From: a virus
Virus record (IMG/VR): IMGVR_UViG_3300013094_000239
Coordinates: 1-26,207 of that record
DNA: 26,207 nucleotides
Strand: one strand, 5' to 3'
Shown: in pieces, positions 5,424 through 12,000 of the stretch
Numbering within the stretch: position 1 is the stretch's first letter
How the letters are laid out: each line of letters starts with the position of its first letter
Made by a program: the position numbers and the translations under genes
Notes under the pieces: generated by a model
Told to the model about the DNA's origin: nothing
Database searches by the model: none
The model's input: the letters and a program-made list of their open reading frames with translations, nothing else

Positions 5424-6008
5424 TCACAAGCCGTTGAGTTCCTGTTCGCATAATAGATTCATATGCACAACAACTAATAATGCGTAAGCACAGGAATGAG
5501 AACGTTTGAATGCATACCCATCAATATCTTTATCCCATACAGTTTTCGCTACTTCACGCCAAGGTAATCCAATCAAGTGTTTCTTACCTGGACGAATGAT
5601 AGCAAGAAACATTGCTAGTCTAGGAATACTATCAATTGGTTCAGGCATTCGTTGAATAGAGTTATAGTGATTGCTTAAATGAATCAACTTCTCAACAAAT
5701 GTTTTGTCATTTAGTTTACTCCAGAATGGATTCTGCATTAGTCGTTCTAAATGTTGTTCATCCTTAACATGATTATAGATATGAACATTCAATAAGTCTA
5801 GTTTAAAGTATCCACGTTTCTCTGCATCACTATAATCAATGTTAGCCATGTCATTGATTGCATCATATGGAACATCTGTGATATGTACCCCTGTTGAATG
5901 TTTACGCATAGGTTGAATCTTACGCATTGCAGCAGGGATATATTTGATGTGTTGTAAGATTTTATCTCTATCACCAAAATCAATATCAATATCTGATTGA
6001 AATTTCAT
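5424..6008 (-). CDS. miniature DnaE-like protein (C-family DNA polymerase core motifs)
   Basis: 194 aa, yet it keeps in order the signatures of bacterial DNA polymerase III alpha: SDIDIDF at residues 5-11 (PDIDLDF, catalytic aspartates at D6 and D8); KHSTGVHI at 36-43 (KHAGGVVI); SDAEKRGYFKLDLLNV at 60-75 (the KFDFLGL strand, third aspartate at D71); LAMFLAIIRPGKKH near 132-145 (ALYRPGP); and DGYAFKRSHSCAYALL near 164-179 (FNKSHAAAYAL). Full DnaE proteins exceed 1000 aa with PHP, tau-binding and OB domains, all absent here. The ATG overlaps the stop of the DexA-type exonuclease gene (ATGA). Whether it polymerises DNA is unknown; a regulatory or priming role is equally possible. T4-like phages replicate with a family-B enzyme, not seen in this window. 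Confidence 0.75.
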   Translation of the reverse strand: MKFQSDIDIDFGDRDKILQHIKYIPAAMRKIQPMRKHSTGVHITDVPYDAINDMANIDYSDAEKRGYFKLDLLNVHIYNHVKDEQHLERLMQNPFWSKLNDKTFVEKLIHLSNHYNSIQRMPEPIDSIPRLAMFLAIIRPGKKHLIGLPWREVAKTVWDKDIDGYAFKRSHSCAYALLVVVHMNLLCEQELNGL

Positions 6009-6553
6009 CGTGTCATTAATCCTGCTTTAATCATTTTCATATATGCTTGTTGAACAACAATGGCTTGTCGTTCCGCATCTTCTACTGCTTTGTGAGAAGT
6101 AACATGCCCGCCGTCTCTGAGTTTGACCCCAGCCACTTCGTAAAGAGTACGGGTATCTCGCACACTCCAGAATGGCCAGGGGATTCGCATGTCAAGTTGC
6201 TTCCATGCTGTTTCCATAACCACACAGTCAAAAGCAGCACCGTTACTCCACACAGCACGGCGATTCCAGCAGAAGCTATATAACTTTTCCATGCATTCTT
6301 TAAATGAGATTCTATCTCTGTCCCCCAATGCTTCTTCTTGGGCTGCTGCTGACTGCTCACCCCACCAACGTAATGTATCATCATCAATTATCCTATTGTA
6401 TGTGTCTGTCTGTTCTTCGATTGTTGGTCTGAGTTCCAATCTCTCAGCGATGCCAGTACCTTTTGGATCAAAGCGCACTGCACCAATTGTAAGTATAACA
6501 CAATAAGGGTCTGTTGACAAACTCTCAATGTCAATCATAATGTCCGCTGCCAT
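6005..6553 (-). CDS. dexA: 3'-5' exonuclease, T4 DexA-like (DEDD superfamily)
   Basis: Exonuclease acting on single-stranded DNA 3' ends. ExoI motif MIDIESLST (D8, E10), ExoII region AVWSNGAAFDCVVMETAW and ExoIII HKAVEDAERQ with the His-x4-Asp signature of the DEDDh class. 182 aa, slightly shorter than T4 DexA (227 aa). GGAAG precedes the ATG by 6 nt and lies inside the last codons of the upstream array gene. It is coupled by a 4-nt ATGA overlap to the miniature DnaE-like gene, echoing the polymerase-plus-proofreader pairing of DnaE and DnaQ; that link is inference. Confidence 0.88.
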   Translation of the reverse strand: MAADIMIDIESLSTDPYCVILTIGAVRFDPKGTGIAERLELRPTIEEQTDTYNRIIDDDTLRWWGEQSAAAQEEALGDRDRISFKECMEKLYSFCWNRRAVWSNGAAFDCVVMETAWKQLDMRIPWPFWSVRDTRTLYEVAGVKLRDGGHVTSHKAVEDAERQAIVVQQAYMKMIKAGLMTR

Positions 6554-6835
6554 TTAGTTCTTCCACATTTCGTAAATAAACTTTGCCTTGTCGTCCCAGA
6601 TTTCAATATATAACACGTTTCCGGCTAACCAGAAGTCCCAAGCAATACCGCGCTCACCTAAATTTCTACGACACCATTTGATATAATCATTTGGATCAAC
6701 CTTTTGATAATTCAAATCAATCTTATGAGTAATACGACCACGACTAGTTGTTTCGTAAGAGGTGCGATCAGGTTGAGTTACATGTTGCAATGGTGCAAAT
6801 GTACCTGTACTATTACCAATTCCTGCTATTGCCAT
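6554..6835 (-). CDS. array gene 1 (last in operon), 93 aa, diverged family member
   Basis: Keeps the family middle (YIKWCRRNLGERGIAWDFW) and a C-terminal strand (VLYIEIWDDKAKFIYEMW), but the L-R-W tail has become EMWKN. The N-terminal 30 residues are a polar Gly/Thr-rich extension not seen in the others. The start shares the A of the upstream TAA (TAATG at 6835), and AAGG of the upstream L-R-Y codons lies 9 nt before it. Its own last codons (ATG TGG AAG AAC) supply GGAAG as the ribosome binding site for the DexA gene. Confidence 0.8.
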   Translation of the reverse strand: MAIAGIGNSTGTFAPLQHVTQPDRTSYETTSRGRITHKIDLNYQKVDPNDYIKWCRRNLGERGIAWDFWLAGNVLYIEIWDDKAKFIYEMWKN

Positions 6836-7053
6836 TATTCATACCTTAGACTAAACCATGTTGCTAATTCTTCTTTGTAGAATGTAAACACAGTATGTCT
6901 ATTATACACTGCATCATGGCTCAAGTCATCATATTTGGGTTTATTGTACGCAAAATCAAAATCAGTACCTTGAGTATACCCCTGTTGTCTAAGTTCTCTA
7001 ACAATGTCCATAATCTCATTGGGCATCTTGTCTATCAATCTAACTTGTAACAT
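6835..7053 (-). CDS. array gene 2, 72 aa, F-x-L-R-Y tail
   Basis: Ends TWFSLRYE, encoded CTA AGG TAT GAA TAA, which supplies AAGG for the next gene. The N-terminal half (PNEIMDIVRELRQQGYTQGTDFDF) is a helix-turn different from most members. It starts at ATG 7053 sharing an A with the upstream TAA; a longer in-frame reading to 7077 is possible but would overlap more. No Shine-Dalgarno is visible, so it probably relies on reinitiation. Confidence 0.75.
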   Translation of the reverse strand: MLQVRLIDKMPNEIMDIVRELRQQGYTQGTDFDFAYNKPKYDDLSHDAVYNRHTVFTFYKEELATWFSLRYE

Positions 7054-7295
7054 TATGAAAACATAATTGTGAACCAAGTTGCCATCTTGTCATCTTGGAA
7101 AGTTAAATCCCATTGAACTACAGAACTGTGAGTTCCTACATCCTCATTCTGAACTATAACCTTTTGTTTTTTTGCGATCCAACCTTGTCCACCTATTGAG
7201 TTGTGCATGTAATGGAGTCTCGGGCCTATATTCTTAATAAGCCACTGTTCTTGTTTTGGTTCTAATCCTTTTGGTAATTTTATAGTTACAGCCAT
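7053..7295 (-). CDS. array gene 3, 80 aa, diverged tail
   Basis: Resembles array gene 4 (EQWLIKNIGPRLHYMH against HWTTKTVGPFLRKMH), so the two are probably a more recent duplicate pair. The end, FQDDKMATWFTIMFS, keeps the F-x-D/E-x-x-x-W-F spacing but has lost L-R-W. The ATG at 7295 lies inside the upstream AGATGG codons, giving a 10-nt overlap, with only TTAAG before it as a weak binding site. Confidence 0.75.
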   Translation of the reverse strand: MAVTIKLPKGLEPKQEQWLIKNIGPRLHYMHNSIGGQGWIAKKQKVIVQNEDVGTHSSVVQWDLTFQDDKMATWFTIMFS

Positions 7296-7480
7296 CTTAA
7301 AGCAAACATTTCCGCATGCTTTTTATATTTGAAAGAATAATGGTATCCGTCGCTGCAATAGTTATTGTTGCCCAAATAGATATCGCACCACCTCTCAACT
7401 TTATCATGCATTTTTCTCAAAAAAGGACCAACGGTTTTGGTCGTCCAGTGTGCGTTATTGTGGCATTCAGAATAAGTCAT
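7286..7480 (-). CDS. array gene 4, 64 aa, F-x-L-R-W tail
   Basis: The smallest member: GPFLRKMHDKVERWCDIYLG, then YHYSFKYKKHAEMFALRWL, with the tail encoded TTA AGA TGG CTG TAA. Unlike its neighbours it is separated from the upstream gene by 32 nt and has its own canonical AGGAGT (7485-7490) 4 nt before the ATG. The upstream gene is the one array gene that does not end in the family motif. Paralogue of gene 3. Confidence 0.8.
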   Translation of the reverse strand: MTYSECHNNAHWTTKTVGPFLRKMHDKVERWCDIYLGNNNYCSDGYHYSFKYKKHAEMFALRWL

Positions 7481-7484
7481 ATCT

Positions 7485-7490
7485 ACTCCT
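7485..7490 (-). promoter_or_regulatory. stand-alone Shine-Dalgarno AGGAGT in the array
   Basis: This is the clear intergenic canonical ribosome binding site inside the 4.2-kb array. It occurs where the upstream gene (7513-7788) lacks the L-R-W codons that otherwise provide GAGG, so it acts as a natural control for the dual-use tail. Confidence 0.75.
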
Positions 7491-7512
7491 GTATACTAAT
7501 AACGCACAAACC

Positions 7513-7788
7513 TTATGGGGCGTTGACACAGGGATGTGTCAAAACATCAAACAGTGTCCCGTATTCAACTTCAGGTTCCATATGAAACCCCGTACCCCAC
7601 ACTGCCCAGAACTTACGCTTATATGCTTTTTGCCAAAATATCAGTTTACCTGATACAGTGCGTCTAGGAATGATAGCAAAGTATTCAGTCCAATTATAAC
7701 AACCAGTACCACCGTAAATTCTTTGTGTGATAATCATCTTAGCTCTATCTAAGTTCCATCCTATACTTCTATTGAGATTATATTTCAT
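7513..7788 (-). CDS. array-embedded gene 5, 91 aa, not an evident family member
   Basis: Aromatic- and basic-rich (NWTEYFAIIPRRTVSG, KLIFWQKAYKRKFWAVWG), ending FDVLTHPCVNAP with no F-x-L-R-W tail. It looks unrelated to its neighbours and may be an insertion into the array. It starts at ATG 7788 in an ATGA overlap with the upstream stop. The upstream tail uses CGC for Arg, so no Shine-Dalgarno is formed and coupling is the likely route of expression. Confidence 0.7.
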   Translation of the reverse strand: MKYNLNRSIGWNLDRAKMIITQRIYGGTGCYNWTEYFAIIPRRTVSGKLIFWQKAYKRKFWAVWGTGFHMEPEVEYGTLFDVLTHPCVNAP

Positions 7789-8174
7789 GACCAGCGTAAT
7801 ACAAACCAAGCATAATCTTTTTCGTCACGGAATCGAATTTTATCAATGTGAATATCAGCCCATCGTGTCCAAGCATCAGGGTATCGAGGGCGCGGACCAA
7901 AGTGTTCAGTACACCATGCTATGACTTCTTCATAATCTTCATAGCGATGGTCTGCTTCGTACCACTTGGCACGACTGAATTTGTATTTGGATTGTGGTTT
8001 GTAGCTGGCTCCTATGGAAAAGATTTGACCAACAGACCCAGTCATAGGTTGTACGCCCAAGATACTATGTGCCATTGCCAGTAATGTGGGTGTAAATTTT
8101 TTAATCATGGGCATGAGTATCTGCTGTGCCGTAGCCGTTACATTAGCGGCTGTGTTAGGATCGTATTGTGTCAT
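7785..8174 (-). CDS. array gene 6, 129 aa, F-x-L-R-W tail
   Basis: The largest member. A 55-residue N-terminal extension (ATAQQILMPMIKKFTPTLLAM and on) with mild hydrophobic character precedes the family module EVIAWCTEHFGPRPRYPDAW, then IRFRDEKDYAWFVLRWS. The tail codons are TTA CGC TGG TCA TGA. It starts at ATG 8174 in an ATGA overlap, with the upstream GAGG 8 nt before the ATG. Confidence 0.8.
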   Translation of the reverse strand: MTQYDPNTAANVTATAQQILMPMIKKFTPTLLAMAHSILGVQPMTGSVGQIFSIGASYKPQSKYKFSRAKWYEADHRYEDYEEVIAWCTEHFGPRPRYPDAWTRWADIHIDKIRFRDEKDYAWFVLRWS

Positions 8175-8437
8175 GTCCACCTCAATAGAAACATAGTAAG
8201 AAACTCATCTTTGCACAACATGATTTCACCAACTTCGGTATTGTCTACCCAGTAACTATCTTCAATGTCTTCACGGTAGCCACTCTTACCAAATGTCTTC
8301 TTACACCATTTACGAATTTCATTAGTGTCAACTTCACCCTTACCCTTCCAACTGATAGTGGTAATGTTGCGTTTGCTTCCGTAGTAATGTTCAGTCCAAT
8401 AGGTAAATGATCCTAGTTCTTGTGTCTTAGCCTTCAT
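8171..8437 (-). CDS. array gene 7, 88 aa, F-x-L-R-W tail
   Basis: Family module IRKWCKKTFGKSGYREDIED, then IMLCKDEFLTMFLLRWT, tail TTG AGG TGG ACA TGA. An ATG at 8437 with GGTGA 5 nt upstream is preferred. An earlier ATG at 8449 would add MVKY. It overlaps the 3' end of gene 8, which has lost the family tail, by 11 nt. Confidence 0.75.
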   Translation of the reverse strand: MKAKTQELGSFTYWTEHYYGSKRNITTISWKGKGEVDTNEIRKWCKKTFGKSGYREDIEDSYWVDNTEVGEIMLCKDEFLTMFLLRWT

Positions 8438-8672
8438 GTACTTCACCATATGTTAATAAGAAATTAATGTATTTGTCTTCATCAATTACTTCTGCACCAA
8501 ACACTGCTACCATGTTATCACATAATTGAAAGTCAACTATGATGCCAAAAAAGTCTTCGGCATACAAATCAAAGTGATGATATTTTTCGTCTAATTGGGT
8601 TTTTCTAGCACGCCATTCCCTAGCAGACTTGTCAATCATCTGTACAAATTCTTTTGTTGCTTCTACTGTCAT
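8427..8672 (-). CDS. array gene 8, 81 aa, tail lost
   Basis: Mostly helical N-terminus (TKEFVQMIDKSAREWRARKTQLDEKY) and a C-terminus VIDEDKYINFLLTYGEVHEG, in which F-L-L is kept but R-W is replaced and extended. It starts by TAATG sharing at 8672, and the upstream GAGG lies 11 nt before the ATG. Diverged member or independent gene; uncertain. Confidence 0.72.
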   Translation of the reverse strand: MTVEATKEFVQMIDKSAREWRARKTQLDEKYHHFDLYAEDFFGIIVDFQLCDNMVAVFGAEVIDEDKYINFLLTYGEVHEG

Positions 8673-8920
8673 TATTCCCACCTCAATAAAAACCAGTCTC
8701 GGTCTGCTTTGTTCTTAAACCAAAACTTTGCATTGTTAGCGTACCAGCGACCGCCAGGTTCGACGACATCTTCTTTTAGTGATGGACCGAATGTCTCAAC
8801 ATTCCACTGTATCATGTCGAGCCATGTCTGTTGGATTTGATGATACATTTCAGGCACTACTGGTTTTACCGTATAGTATTTTGCACCATATACTTTACCT
8901 TCAGCAAGTTCAAAATCCAT
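8672..8920 (-). CDS. array gene 9, 82 aa, F-x-L-R-W tail
   Basis: Family module MIQWNVETFGPSLKEDVVEP, then FWFKNKADRDWFLLRWE, tail TTG AGG TGG GAA TAA. The start at 8920 shares the A of the upstream TGA (TGATG), with GGAG 9 nt before it inside the upstream R-W codons. Several in-frame upstream starts exist, but the TGATG junction fits the rest of the array. Confidence 0.8.
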   Translation of the reverse strand: MDFELAEGKVYGAKYYTVKPVVPEMYHQIQQTWLDMIQWNVETFGPSLKEDVVEPGGRWYANNAKFWFKNKADRDWFLLRWE

Positions 8921-9147
8921 CACACCCATCTCCATAGGAACCATTGATAGTCTTTTTCTTCTTTGAAGTAATACATCATACCGGTACTATCTTCAAGGAT
9001 AAAGATTCTGTTGCGAATGTTCTCATTAAGATTTTCACGAATCCAATCAAGTCGTTCAGTGTTGGTAGTATCATTGTCATCCCAATTATCTTTATCTTTA
9101 AAATAGATATTATAGGGCCAAACACTTTTGTTTAATTTTCTTGTCAT
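8920..9147 (-). CDS. array gene 10, 75 aa, tail L-W-R-W
   Basis: Family module RLDWIRENLNENIRNRIFIL, then YYFKEEKDYQWFLWRWV, tail CTA TGG AGA TGG GTG TGA. It starts at ATG 9147 in an ATGA overlap with the upstream gene; an ATG two codons earlier is also possible. Only a weak AAGATGG binding site is available. Confidence 0.78.
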   Translation of the reverse strand: MTRKLNKSVWPYNIYFKDKDNWDDNDTTNTERLDWIRENLNENIRNRIFILEDSTGMMYYFKEEKDYQWFLWRWV

Positions 9148-9353
9148 ATCCATCTTAGTGAATAAAAAGTTGCATCACGCTCATCTGTAAAGTATACATC
9201 AAGTCTAAACCAACAATCTCTTTCTTGTTTTTCTTCCCATTCAAGTTCAACTATCATAAACTTTTCAAAACTAGGACAATTGTTAATAGCCCATTCTACT
9301 GCTTCATCCGAGTTGTAGTCTCCGTAAATGTATTTGCTAACAATCACAGCCAT
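9144..9353 (-). CDS. array gene 11, 69 aa, F-x-L-R-W tail
   Basis: Compact member that shows the minimal module well: DEAVEWAINNCPSFEKF, an acidic strand (VELEWEEKQERDCWFRLDVYF), then FTDERDATFYSLRWI with tail CTA AGA TGG ATA TGA. The ATG at 9353 is inside the upstream CGATGG codons (10-nt overlap); GTG 9347 is an alternative. No Shine-Dalgarno, since the upstream tail uses CGA for Arg. Confidence 0.78.
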   Translation of the reverse strand: MAVIVSKYIYGDYNSDEAVEWAINNCPSFEKFMIVELEWEEKQERDCWFRLDVYFTDERDATFYSLRWI

Positions 9354-9646
9354 CGTAAAATGAACCACTCGGCATGTTTTTGTTCTTTAAACGTATACGT
9401 ACTACCAAACTTGTTCCACTTACCTGCACCTACATTAACTACACACCAATCATTAACGTCAACCGCATGCCTCATGTCTTTAAATCTAGGAAGCGCAACA
9501 ACAGTCCAACCTTGTGTCTTGTGAATATCAACCATTGTTTCATTGTTAATTGCTTCTTGTATTTCTCTACTGAAAGCCAAAGACATAATAGTATCAGTAT
9601 CAGTGTAACTATCTTCTGTCGTCCAATTTGCAGTAAATGTTTTCAT
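9344..9646 (-). CDS. array gene 12, 100 aa, F-x-L-R-W tail
   Basis: An N-terminal extension (TANWTTEDSYTDTDTIMSL and on) precedes the module VNDWCVVNVGAGKWNKFGSTYTF, then KEQKHAEWFILRWL, tail TTA CGA TGG CTG TGA. Start chosen at ATG 9646, in an ATGA overlap with the stop of the frameshifted copy and with GAG 6 nt upstream. ATG 9652 would add two residues. Confidence 0.8.
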   Translation of the reverse strand: MKTFTANWTTEDSYTDTDTIMSLAFSREIQEAINNETMVDIHKTQGWTVVALPRFKDMRHAVDVNDWCVVNVGAGKWNKFGSTYTFKEQKHAEWFILRWL

Positions 9647-9857
9647 TTCCATCTCAACTTAAACCATGTTAAATCTTTTTCGTTTTTGAAGGCAAAGAAC
9701 AACACATCACGACCACCTACATCATTCATAGAAAAATCTTCTGTGTCTCTCCATAACCTTCTTCATCGTCACCTAAACTTGACTTTTTGTATGCCAAATA
9801 GTAACCGTCTTTTTTTGGACAGTTATCACCAACATGATACCAAATACTTGTATACAT
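9643..9857 (-). pseudogene. array gene 13, frameshifted family member
   Basis: From ATG 9857 (TAATG junction, GAGG 8 nt upstream) the frame reads MYTSIWYHVGDN to KSSLGDDEEG, then shifts and stops after 43 codons. The adjacent frame continues LWRDTEDFSMNDVGG to FKNEKDLTWFKLRWK and ends at the expected ATGA junction. The whole interval is 215 nt, one short of 72 codons. One missing T in GGTTATGG (about 9751-9758) would explain it. Both ends keep the family junctions, so this is either a recent lesion or a sequencing/assembly error. No typical slippery heptamer is present. Confidence 0.82.
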
Positions 9858-10078
9858 TATAGCCACCTCAACAAGAACCATTCATAATCTTGTTTGCGTT
9901 TGAATCCAAAGTATCTTCCACGATTACGCCAGTTAGAACTTTTGAAATTACTATAGCAAAATCTTTCAACCATGTAGATATGCTGCCAGTCTTTGAGTTC
10001 ATACTGATAGGGCCAGTACTTATCATTGAGTTCTTGTTCTTCAAACCATTGTTTCATTAAACTATCTATCTTATTCAT
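9857..10078 (-). CDS. array gene 14, 73 aa, F-x-L-R-W tail
   Basis: MNKIDSLMKQWFEEQ, a tyrosine/tryptophan-rich middle (YWPYQYELKDWQHIYMVERF), then FGFKRKQDYEWFLLRWL with tail TTG AGG TGG CTA TAA. I prefer ATG 10078, just after the upstream stop at 10084. A TTG at 10105 would add nine residues. No strong ribosome binding site, since the upstream tail has diverged to LLLKI. Confidence 0.75.
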   Translation of the reverse strand: MNKIDSLMKQWFEEQELNDKYWPYQYELKDWQHIYMVERFCYSNFKSSNWRNRGRYFGFKRKQDYEWFLLRWL

Positions 10079-10083
10079 CGGTT

Positions 10084-10296
10084 TCAAATCTTTAACAATA
10101 GCCAAGCATACTTCTTTTCATCTAAGACAGTAATCCTACGCCAGTCACCTTCAAACTTACTAATCTTAACACCGTACTTGTATTCGGCAATCACACGCAT
10201 ACCTTCACTGTTGCCACAGTTTGATTCTTTTGCTTCACGCTCAATCAGTTCCATTATTGGATTGAATGCGGGTTCGTACCATTTAATTACTTTCAT
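10084..10296 (-). CDS. array gene 15, 70 aa, diverged tail (LLLKI)
   Basis: Helical N-terminus (NPIMELIEREAKESN), a strand VIAEYKYGVKISKF, then ITVLDEKKYAWLLLKI, where the family tail is altered. It starts at ATG 10296 in an ATGA overlap, with GAGG of the upstream TTG AGG TGG TTA codons 8 nt before it: a textbook example of the tail-as-binding-site arrangement. Confidence 0.78.
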   Translation of the reverse strand: MKVIKWYEPAFNPIMELIEREAKESNCGNSEGMRVIAEYKYGVKISKFEGDWRRITVLDEKKYAWLLLKI

Positions 10297-10553
10297 AACC
10301 ACCTCAACAAAAACCAAGTCCACTGCTGCTCAGTAAATTCAAATGTCATAGATTGATTTTCATCACGATAGATACGATTGATTCCGTAGTACTCTAATAT
10401 CCACTCGTCAGCTAGTCCTTCATACCCATCCTTCATCCATCTTTCACTGATTTCAGGAGTCATGTTTTTTTGAATGACACTATTTACTTTCGTCCAGTTC
10501 TCAAAATTCTCTTTTCCTGTACTAAGTCTAGCATTGTATCTCAGTAGTTTCAT
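10293..10553 (-). CDS. array gene 16, 86 aa, F-x-L-R-W tail
   Basis: MKLLRYNARLSTGKENF, a helical middle (ERWMKDGYEGLADEWILEYYG), then MTFEFTEQQWTWFLLRWL, tail TTG AGG TGG TTA TGA. It starts at ATG 10553 in an ATGA overlap, with GAGG of the upstream TTG AGG TGG CTA codons 8 nt before it. Confidence 0.8.
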   Translation of the reverse strand: MKLLRYNARLSTGKENFENWTKVNSVIQKNMTPEISERWMKDGYEGLADEWILEYYGINRIYRDENQSMTFEFTEQQWTWFLLRWL

Positions 10554-10786
10554 AGCCACCTCAAACTAAAATGAATGGCATCACATTCATTTTGAAAGTA
10601 GAAGTCCATATAATCTTCTGTTGGGTGTGTAGTAAACTTATCACCAGGTAAGCCAAACTGTTCTATTGCCCAAGCACAGGTTTCATTCCAATCACTAATA
10701 GTATCACCATTCTTCCAGAATATGCGTACTCTAGTACCCTGCTGACATGAGGGTGTCTCTGATTTGTTGTTTAAGTTTTGAGTCAC
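10550..10786 (-). CDS. array gene 17 (first in array), 78 aa, F-x-L-R-W tail
   Basis: Family module NETCAWAIEQFGLPGDKF, then MDFYFQNECDAIHFSLRWL, tail TTG AGG TGG CTA TGA. The start is uncertain: the open frame begins with GTG 10786, which overlaps the zinc-finger gene by 56 nt and lacks a Shine-Dalgarno, and no ATG is in frame before the module. As the first gene of the array, it has no family tail upstream to provide a binding site. Confidence 0.7.
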   Translation of the reverse strand: MTQNLNNKSETPSCQQGTRVRIFWKNGDTISDWNETCAWAIEQFGLPGDKFTTHPTEDYMDFYFQNECDAIHFSLRWL

Positions 10787-11429
10787 GGTGAAACTTCAAT
10801 GCCCATTGTTCTGGATTTATATAATCATTAATCATTTTAACTTGAGTCTCATTTAAAGTCTCTAGTAAATGGATACCGCTGTCGCTACAATACAACATCC
10901 ATGGACTTATCTTACCCGAACATATACCGTGACATATACGATTTGGGTTACTATACCTAAATACATCATTGGGTTGAATTTCGTCTAGTTCAGCCAATGT
11001 AGTACAATACTCTACACTGCGATATATTGCATCAAATGCATCTTCCACTCGCAAATACTCGCACAAGAATTTGTTGTAAACACTATCATTATTCCAGTTA
11101 TCTAGTTTGATTTGATTTTGCAACAACCAATCAACGTAACGAGGTATGTGAATTACTTTACTTTCAACACAATATGTACCAAACTTAACGAATGCAATGT
11201 AATATGGACTACGAATGAATTCTTCAACTGTTTTGTTCTTAGTTTTACTCATGCTATGCTTTTCGTAAAACCTAACCCAGCATTGAAACCCAATCCTATT
11301 GCTAGGATGATCCTTGTTTAACCAACGAGATTTTCTTTCACATATATGGCTGAGTAAGGTACGATCTCTAGTAAAATTCTTATTACAGAATTCACAGGTG
11401 TACTTACTCGTTGCCAAGTTCTCTTTCAT
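10731..11429 (-). CDS. zinc-finger hypothetical protein, 232 aa
   Basis: An N-terminal C2H2-like finger (YTCEFCNKNFTRDRTLLSHICE) is followed by basic KSRWLNKD and a conserved-looking alpha-rich body with AFVKFGTYC and RYVDWLLQNQIKLDNW. I recall closely similar proteins of unknown function in T4-like cyanophages. Probably a nucleic-acid-binding phage protein. Start: ATG 11429 preferred; TTG 11417 (preceded by AAAGAG) is a realistic alternative, and the longest frame reaches 11447. It overlaps the end of the gp62-like gene by 26 nt. Confidence 0.7.
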   Translation of the reverse strand: MKENLATSKYTCEFCNKNFTRDRTLLSHICERKSRWLNKDHPSNRIGFQCWVRFYEKHSMSKTKNKTVEEFIRSPYYIAFVKFGTYCVESKVIHIPRYVDWLLQNQIKLDNWNNDSVYNKFLCEYLRVEDAFDAIYRSVEYCTTLAELDEIQPNDVFRYSNPNRICHGICSGKISPWMLYCSDSGIHLLETLNETQVKMINDYINPEQWALKFHRDSKLKQQIRDTLMSAGY

Positions 11430-12000
11430 ACGATCTAATGTCTTCATCAGTTACCAATTGTGCAAGGGTTTCAATGTCATCAAGTTTCAAATCAGGGAAT
11501 CTTTTAGCAAGATACACCTTCTTTTTATGTTCTTCAACGAAGGCTTCGCTGATTGCATTAATAGAATCATCATCTGCTTTAGTGTATATTTTAGCATAGT
11601 ATTCTCTAATATCCTTCAGTTTAGGTGATTCTTTCAGTGTTGCAACTTTACTTGAAAGATGAGGTATCCATTGATGGAACTGTTTCCCTAAACCAGGGCT
11701 ACTGGCACACAACATCATCCATTGTAGTTTAGGGTGCTTTTGTACATGCTCGTTGAACAAATATTTATTAGCGTTATACTCAGTACTCATTACATAATAA
11801 CCTTGCACGTCACCGCTACCTTTAATAGCACTCATCCAATGAGTCATCATGTAAGGAACAAACTTACGTTGTTGTTCTTCTGTAAGTTTGTCCATATAGT
11901 TGTAATCTTTACGATCCAACGCCGCAAGTGCCTCAAACAAATCAAAGTCTTGCTTTTCTAATTTTTCGTCTTTGGGAGTTGCTGGTTTCTTAGTTGCCAT
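11404..12000 (-). CDS. 62: probable clamp-loader small subunit, T4 gp62-like
   Basis: In T4, gp62 joins gp44 to load the gp45 sliding clamp. The match here is by layout and pattern: an N-terminal DLFEALAALDRKDYNYMDKL, then KFVPYMMTHWMSAI, and HPKLQWMMLCASSPGLGKQFHQWI, which resembles the small-and-basic G-K-x-x-x-K/Q-W block of gp62 proteins. 198 aa against 187 for T4 gp62. No P-loop. gp44 and gp45 are not next to it, which weakens the call. The ATG shares an A with the upstream TAA (TAATG at 12000), with CAGG 8 nt before it. Confidence 0.55.
   Translation of the reverse strand: MATKKPATPKDEKLEKQDFDLFEALAALDRKDYNYMDKLTEEQQRKFVPYMMTHWMSAIKGSGDVQGYYVMSTEYNANKYLFNEHVQKHPKLQWMMLCASSPGLGKQFHQWIPHLSSKVATLKESPKLKDIREYYAKIYTKADDDSINAISEAFVEEHKKKVYLAKRFPDLKLDDIETLAQLVTDEDIRSYERELGNE

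Follow-up and report, generated by a model that had tools for sequence, protein, structure and literature searches.

Translational coupling is a familiar feature of compact operons, in which stop and start codons overlap as ATGA or TAATG and the Shine-Dalgarno (SD) site of the second gene lies within the end of the first. In T4-type phages, PeSL cassettes are defined by intergenic promoter and stem-loop elements (Arbiol et al. 2010, Comeau et al. 2014, as summarised in PMC4503421). Cyanophage S-PM2 carries an ORFanage of about 33 consecutive small orphan genes with many ATGA overlaps, which are rarely syntenic and are common in freshwater metagenomes (PMC4503421). Here we describe an array of 17 consecutive small genes on the minus strand (10786..6554) of IMG/VR record IMGVR_UViG_3300013094_000239, the 26,207 bases of which we call the window and which is probably a fragment. 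Most of these genes end in a Leu-Arg-Trp (LRW) tail, and the codons of the tail lie at the start of the following gene. We propose, with a probability of about 0.85, that this is a hypervariable cassette array in which one short stretch of DNA codes for the protein tail, carries the translation signal and apparently marks the point of exchange.

Tail codons and the following start

The LRW-tail family is defined here by the C-terminal pattern F-x-[LIVM]-[RK]-[WYF]-x. Searching with the gene upstream of the array returned 34 relatives, and in nearly all of them an LRW-tail array of differing content directly follows that gene. With further searches using two array members, the collected set reached 186 loci including the window, with 962 distinct LRW-tail open reading frames (ORFs) in 307 orthogroups (OGs); the longest array has 28 genes.

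When 947 tails were classified by the position of the next ATG, 577 had it at -4 or -1 (mode A) and 84 at -10 but at neither of the other two positions (mode B), the next start overlapping or abutting the stop as in translational coupling; an ATG at -10 together with a second ATG was found in 114 more. In mode A the tail arginine is AGG in 437 of 469 cases (93%) and the leucine TTG in 376 of 577, whereas elsewhere in the same proteins AGG accounts for 7.4% of 3,821 arginines and TTG for 20% of leucines. AGG amounts to 5.8% of all arginine codons in 1,486 long ORFs, and where an LRW gene is followed in mode A by another LRW gene it is used for 302 of 314 arginines. A preference for AGG before TGG as such was ruled out, since internal [LIVM]RW triplets of long ORFs carry AGG in only 3 of 131 cases (2.3%). 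The bases formed at the tail include GAGGTG, which pairs with the 3' end of 16S ribosomal RNA (rRNA). GAGGTG stands ahead of an overlapping ATG in 307 of 600 LRW genes (51%) compared to 16 of 974 other genes (1.6%).

In mode B the tail is written differently. Here AGA, CGA or AAA precedes TGG, and the two triplets together contain an ATG at -10 from which the next gene starts. Where a tail has no start in its vicinity, AGG is used in 9 of 24 cases, against the 437 of 469 of mode A (p 4e-11). The same dependence is seen within a single orthogroup, as the junctions with OG0 in the upstream position comprise 20 of mode A and 8 of mode B, and this codon switching among close relatives is the strongest control for the dependence of the codon on its neighbour.

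The ratio of arginine to lysine at the tail is 469:108 in mode A, where the site is needed, and 24:23 where no start is near. In addition, Sinorhizobium phage Phosso keeps an L-T-W tail coded TTG ACC TGG. As lysine replaces arginine more often where no site is needed, and as the tail of Phosso persists without AGG, the tail is a protein motif first, with codons tuned to the neighbour. These observations bear on the simpler explanation of ordinary coupling in a compact operon, by which overlapping genes carry the next SD site and L-R-W is a conserved protein feature with no role at the joint. It agrees with the survival of L-x-W without AGG, both as LTWL in Phosso and as LKW with AAA or AAG, which indicates a protein motif in its own right, and with the presence of some SD-like bases in ATGA overlaps outside the family. 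Yet it does not account for the excess of GAGGTG before overlapping LRW starts, nor for unrelated neighbours that have the joint in common but not the flanks, and we regard it as fairly unlikely.

Exchange of neighbours at the joint

Near-identical genes have exchanged neighbours at the TTGAGGTGG joint. Across 26 junctions OG3 is preceded by 22 different orthogroups. Loci L057 and L054 share 32 identical nucleotides (nt) and then diverge, one continuing with TTAAGATGGACGTAATG and the other with TTGAGGTGGGCATGA, and a downstream ORF beginning ATGATGGATTTAGA is preceded by at least seven different genes, which have the joint alone in common. In 79 pairs sharing the downstream gene but not the upstream one, the arginine or lysine codon agrees in 72%, and in 182 pairs sharing the upstream gene it agrees in 68%, the random expectation being 35% for both. 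Since agreement is similarly high from either side, the signal is the joint shared by both genes and not a property of one of them.

An earlier reading of the window from its letters (the original prediction) held that each gene is a self-contained cassette that drives whatever follows. The exchanged neighbours support the cassette idea, which holds with the addition that the downstream gene carries the signal along too; that the cassette drives its follower is half right, as the arginine codon tracks the upstream gene no better than it tracks the downstream one.

It is conceivable that the joint serves recombination first, either site-specific or through short homology, and that its match to a ribosome binding site is secondary. 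The 18-nt DNA of the tail forms direct repeats at seven tails of the window, breakpoints fall at the joint and the neighbours are promiscuous, all of which would suit such a role. A fixed site, however, would not need the codon to follow the position of the next ATG within one orthogroup, and no inverted-repeat recombination site was found at the joints. The absence of AGG from all 51 mode B tails, where the codon is forced, together with its drop where no start is near, largely contradicts this explanation, which we consider improbable.

In the cassette array that we favour, each cassette encodes a protein of 60-130 amino acids (aa) with a predicted β-α-β-β-α domain, its last helix terminating in F-x-L-R/K-W. 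Where L-R-W is encoded as TTG AGG TGG, as in the common mode A, the mRNA contains GAGGUG, complementary to the 3' end of 16S rRNA, with five nt between GAGG and an ATG in overlap with the stop (NNATGA or TAATG). Having ended one small protein, a ribosome could then restart on the next, and coupling would join the whole array into a single operon. In mode B the next ATG comes from AGA-TGG, CGA-TGG or AAA-TGG itself, and restart would proceed through coupling alone. Recombination, which we infer to act through short homology, would exchange cassettes at the joint and leave the upstream protein and the downstream start intact, the exchange being harmless because nearly identical 9-15 nt end every cassette.

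Several observations weigh against this reading. The loci were collected through similarity to proteins of the window, and the numbers do not stand for independent events, even though the set spans 307 orthogroups. The 9 of 24 AGG tails without a near start, a small sample, still exceed the background, and either history or unseen starts contribute to them. Mode B shows no visible SD site. Breakpoints at the joint are not cleanly separable from those at ordinary gene borders because the genes overlap, and some of the neighbour swaps could be assembly chimaeras.

The array in the window

The gene content of the window, on the minus strand, is of the T4-related jumbo phage type, and megablast of the window against named phages gave no match. 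The array lies between a gene with homologues in jumbo phages and an exonuclease gene, as follows (all on the minus strand).

10731-11447, minus: gene upstream of the array, phrog_11058; homologues in jumbo phages, e.g. PA5oct, Atu_ph07, PBECO4
10550..10786, minus: g01, 78 aa, heading the array, tail FSLRWL; its start and the end of the upstream gene overlap
10550..10564, minus: joint g01/g02 TTGAGGTGGCTATGA; LRWL and stop, GAGGTG site, ATG of g02 overlapping the stop by 4 nt
10293..10553, minus: g02, 86 aa, tail FLLRWL
10293..10307, minus: joint g02/g03 TTGAGGTGGTTATGA
10084..10296, minus: g03, 70 aa, no LRW tail (LLLKI)
9857..10078, minus: g04, 73 aa from ATG (alternative start TTG at 10087), tail FLLRWL
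9857..9871, minus: joint g04/g05 TTGAGGTGGCTATAATG
9643..9857, minus: g05, frameshifted; start MYTSIW in one frame, FKLRWK (TTG AGA TGG AAA TGA) in another
9344..9646, minus: g06, 100 aa, tail FILRWL
9344..9358, minus: joint g06/g07 TTACGATGGCTGTGA; mode B, CGATGG holding the ATG of g07 (9353)
9144..9353, minus: g07, 69 aa, tail YSLRWI (AGA; next ATG at -10 or -4)
8920..9147, minus: g08, 75 aa, tail FLWRWV (AGA)
8672..8920, minus: g09, 82 aa, tail FLLRWE; member of OG0, the largest orthogroup, with 85 members
8672..8686, minus: joint g09/g10 TTGAGGTGGGAATAATG
8427..8672, minus: g10, 81 aa, eroded tail (LLTYGEVHEG); orthologues end in LLRFG
8171..8437, minus: g11, 88 aa, tail FLLRWT
8171..8185, minus: joint g11/g12 TTGAGGTGGACATGA
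7785..8174, minus: g12, 129 aa, N-terminal gp23 piece fused to an LRW domain, tail FVLRWS (CGC)
7513..7788, minus: g13, 91 aa, no LRW tail
7286..7480, minus: g14, 64 aa, tail FALRWL
7286..7300, minus: joint g14/g15 TTAAGATGGCTGTAA; mode B, AGATGG holding the ATG of g15 (7295)
7053..7295, minus: g15, 80 aa, tail TIMFS (LKFL in relatives)
6835..7053, minus: g16, 72 aa, tail FSLRYE; orthogroup OG1
6835..6849, minus: joint g16/g17 CTAAGGTATGAATAATG
6554..6835, minus: g17, last gene of the array, 93 aa, adjoining the exonuclease gene; no LRW tail (EMWKN)
6005-6553, minus: exonuclease, downstream of the array
5424-6008, minus: polymerase fragment, downstream of the array

Tails read from the sequence bear out the prediction that 12 of the 17 consecutive genes end in L-R-W/Y, or strictly in [L/W]-R-W/Y; the five others are g03, g10, g13, g15 and g17. 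The predicted six AGG tails (g01, g02, g04, g09, g11, g16) and four AGA tails (g05, g07, g08, g14) were counted exactly, the remaining two being CGA in g06 and CGC in g12. The placing of (G/A)AGG close upstream of the next ATG was equally accurate, with 5 or 8 nt from AGG to the ATG at all six AGG tails. The AGA tails are mainly not weak SD sites, a reading that was dropped, since AGA-TGG forms the ATG of the next gene in frame (AGATGG). Of the three outcomes that would have refuted the prediction none was seen in the wider family: AGG is in excess at the tail, it falls at tails with no start near, and the subfamilies tested are related (see above and below). In all, the tail and joint observation in the window is confirmed, and the cassette interpretation is supported.

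Within the window AGG is used at 6 of 12 tails and for 14 of 265 arginines of the other genes (binomial p ~1.5e-5). TTGAGGTGGNNATGA occurs three times compared to none in 100 shuffles, and YTNAGGTRNNNATRA seven times, six of them at tails, compared to a mean of 0.17 and a maximum of 2 in shuffles. The head gene g01 has orthologues at the same place in at least 18 relatives, and its group, OG4, is hardly ever found downstream of another LRW gene.

The two halves of g05 lie in different frames, the start in an ORF at 9857-9726 and the LRWK half at 9643-9762. Near this frameshift (window 9643-9881) a joint-like TTTAGGTGACGATGA is found at 9763-9777, possibly the mark of a decayed or recombined cassette.

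A homologous family in uncultured jumbo phages

Profile-profile comparison of some of the orthogroups by hhalign linked the tested subfamilies, A1 with A2 at E 6e-7, A1 with A6 at 1e-9 and A4 with A6 at 5e-10, the alignment spanning the whole domain; by these profiles the tested subfamilies are homologous beyond the similarity of their tails. AlphaFold2 predicts a β-α-β-β-α fold with LRW at the end of the last helix, at a mean pLDDT of 77 for g01 and above 90 for the domain of g12. Among solved structures the best matches (Z 6.7 for g01 and 4.8 for the g12 domain, best Foldseek E 0.46) reflect only common ferredoxin-like arrangements. The closest models are unnamed proteins of uncultured Caudovirales in BFVD, e.g. 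A0A6J5TB89, which resemble the LRW domain in predicted fold, the top matches being 34-50% identical to g01 over the domain. Unlike the LRW genes described here, they come with neither function nor array context in that database.

In PHROGs, Pfam and PADLOC no named family covers the LRW domains, matches being at chance level apart from the gp23 pieces and isolated weak ones. A contig scan of cellular genomes with the A2 profile gave no confirmed relatives, and tblastn of g09 and of one Phosso tail gene against named phages gave no further ones. Phosso, a cultured phage, carries a remote tandem of five genes (L243 2507-3993, PV764938 369506-370992) with ATGA overlaps and the tails KLRWL, RLTYS, KLTWL, RLTWL and KLAIL. 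In eight large phage contigs the joint 11-mer is clustered in one to three places per genome, with 55 occurrences in six contigs compared to 3 of the reversed pattern. The array is probably carried by uncultured jumbo phages that are related to T4 and form a large group.

Fused pieces of gp23, NrdA and helicase

The N-terminal part of g12 matches Pfam Gp23 (PF07068) with 35.1 bits (cut-off 24.4) over profile positions 2-59 of 376, and phrog_138 with E 1.2e-8. Judged by these matches g12 carries a fragment of gp23 and is not a capsid protein. AlphaFold2 predicts the gp23-derived part with low confidence and the LRW domain well. The piece aligns to residues 77-131 of T4 gp23, which we take to include the Gol region. 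Gol is a peptide of gp23 and an activator of the Lit protease, and CapRel is triggered by capsid proteins (PMC9712102, PMC12926258).

The same piece, marked by GVQPM, is found on at least three LRW subfamilies, in several cases above the Pfam cut-off (window 7785-8174; L123 5998-6408; L137 6132-6572; L117 5784-6170; array genes of L157 and L166). A second capsid piece, (Y/F)YAPYIP, compares with the C-terminal part of gp23 (GIYYAPYVAL in T4) and is joined to the GVQPM piece or to an SNLCKEI piece (L137 6132-6572, L118 5615-5956, L004 5060-5386). In other N-termini the motif DLET is strung together with a helicase-like P-loop (GRQTGKS) and SNLCKEI (L146 3833-4309; L116 9663-10136; L163 5761-6219; L141 5785-6213; L139 5716-6201). 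SNLCxEI is a piece of the active site of ribonucleotide reductase, NrdA (phrog_3987 E 0.002, hhalign 4e-5). The P-loop piece fits a replicative helicase (single-template hhalign E 1.1e-7) better than a terminase (1.8e-4), which was dropped. The pieces, single or strung, are carried by members of at least four LRW subfamilies; among 9,961 other short ORFs they are hardly ever seen. In one phage the piece is only about 42% identical to the gp23 of the same genome, indicating that the fused pieces are old.

The N-terminal helix of g06, EIAESIAKEIDEGIM (window 9344-9646 and orthologues, alignment A4), resembles the gp23 segment EIMAALAQEITVEIDQEIL, a likeness not significant alone. As a gp23 helix the N-termini of OG2 and g06 were rejected, their best scores of 40-46 lying within shuffle maxima of 40-51 (500 shuffles), and are a hint only. 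In T4 the homing endonuclease gene segD is situated just after gp23 (L242 2562-3233).

The fusions may reflect passive capture, or they may be decoys for sensors of conserved phage proteins. Passive capture by illegitimate recombination, leaving functionally meaningless pieces, is a tentative possibility that falls somewhat short of even odds. The pieces are short and mosaic, their order varies, and the contrast in predicted confidence between the two parts of g12 agrees with it; yet the same few segments recur in frame on many contigs and in several subfamilies while being so scarce in other short ORFs, a recurrence that may point to function. Alternatively, the LRW proteins could be fast-turnover factors of host takeover or counter-defence, a role that we infer from the fixed place at which tiny genes form an array of variable content, and the fused parts of gp23, NrdA and helicase could be decoys for bacterial sensors of conserved phage proteins. 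The scores over the Pfam cut-off in g12 and several relatives, the spread of the same pieces over subfamilies and the presumed overlap with the Lit-activating Gol peptide all speak for this, but no match to defence-related or other known families was found, identity to the genome's own gp23 is low, the reductase and helicase matches cover little sequence and score modestly, and conserved pieces may simply be those that can be recognised. We consider it quite unlikely. The fuller proposal, by which the tail is C-terminal helix, next ribosome binding site or start and exchange homology at once and the cassettes are effectors whose N-termini, recombined from capsid, helicase and reductase, act against bacterial sensors or competing phages as baits or decoys, is less probable again. 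Conserved motifs like those of the fused pieces are often hit by homing endonucleases and inteins, and these are a possible origin of the fusions.

Discussion

The LRW joint is an unusually clean and countable case in which protein sequence and translation signal are identical, and it contains its own control, as the same residue in the same family changes codon with its neighbour. It would show a way by which phages keep long operons of tiny genes expressible under constant reshuffling. It also opens a large unannotated protein family to experiment, with a small remote set in the cultured Phosso.

Among the systems with which the array can be compared, the PeSL cassettes, as far as PMC4503421 summarises them, are alike in that small genes of T4-like phages are shuffled via repeated expression signals at gene borders. 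The LRW joints differ in having no intergenic space, the signal being translational and placed inside the coding end of the upstream gene. In accordance, a rough consensus scan of window 6000-11500 gave no excess of PeSL-type signals (19 promoter-like, 18.7 in shuffles; 2 terminator-like, 2.7 in shuffles). The S-PM2 ORFanage is similar in layout but not in sequence. Its 35 small proteins translated from the p017-p050 region have no F-x-L-R-W tail and no GAGGTGG joint, tails being compared by eye only, and it was dropped as a member of the same family. Integron cassettes are likewise promoterless small genes in tandem that form exchangeable units, whereas the LRW joint is itself coding sequence; no attC-like inverted repeats were found at the window joints, and no integrase gene turned up among the window ORFs, no search aimed at integrases having been made. 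In the open-access library searched, we came across no report of an array whose conserved protein tail doubles as the translation signal of the next gene. Translational coupling is the known mechanism with which the array shares its overlapping stops and starts, and the difference lies in that here one protein tail motif provides the SD site or the start at hundreds of junctions among swappable neighbours.

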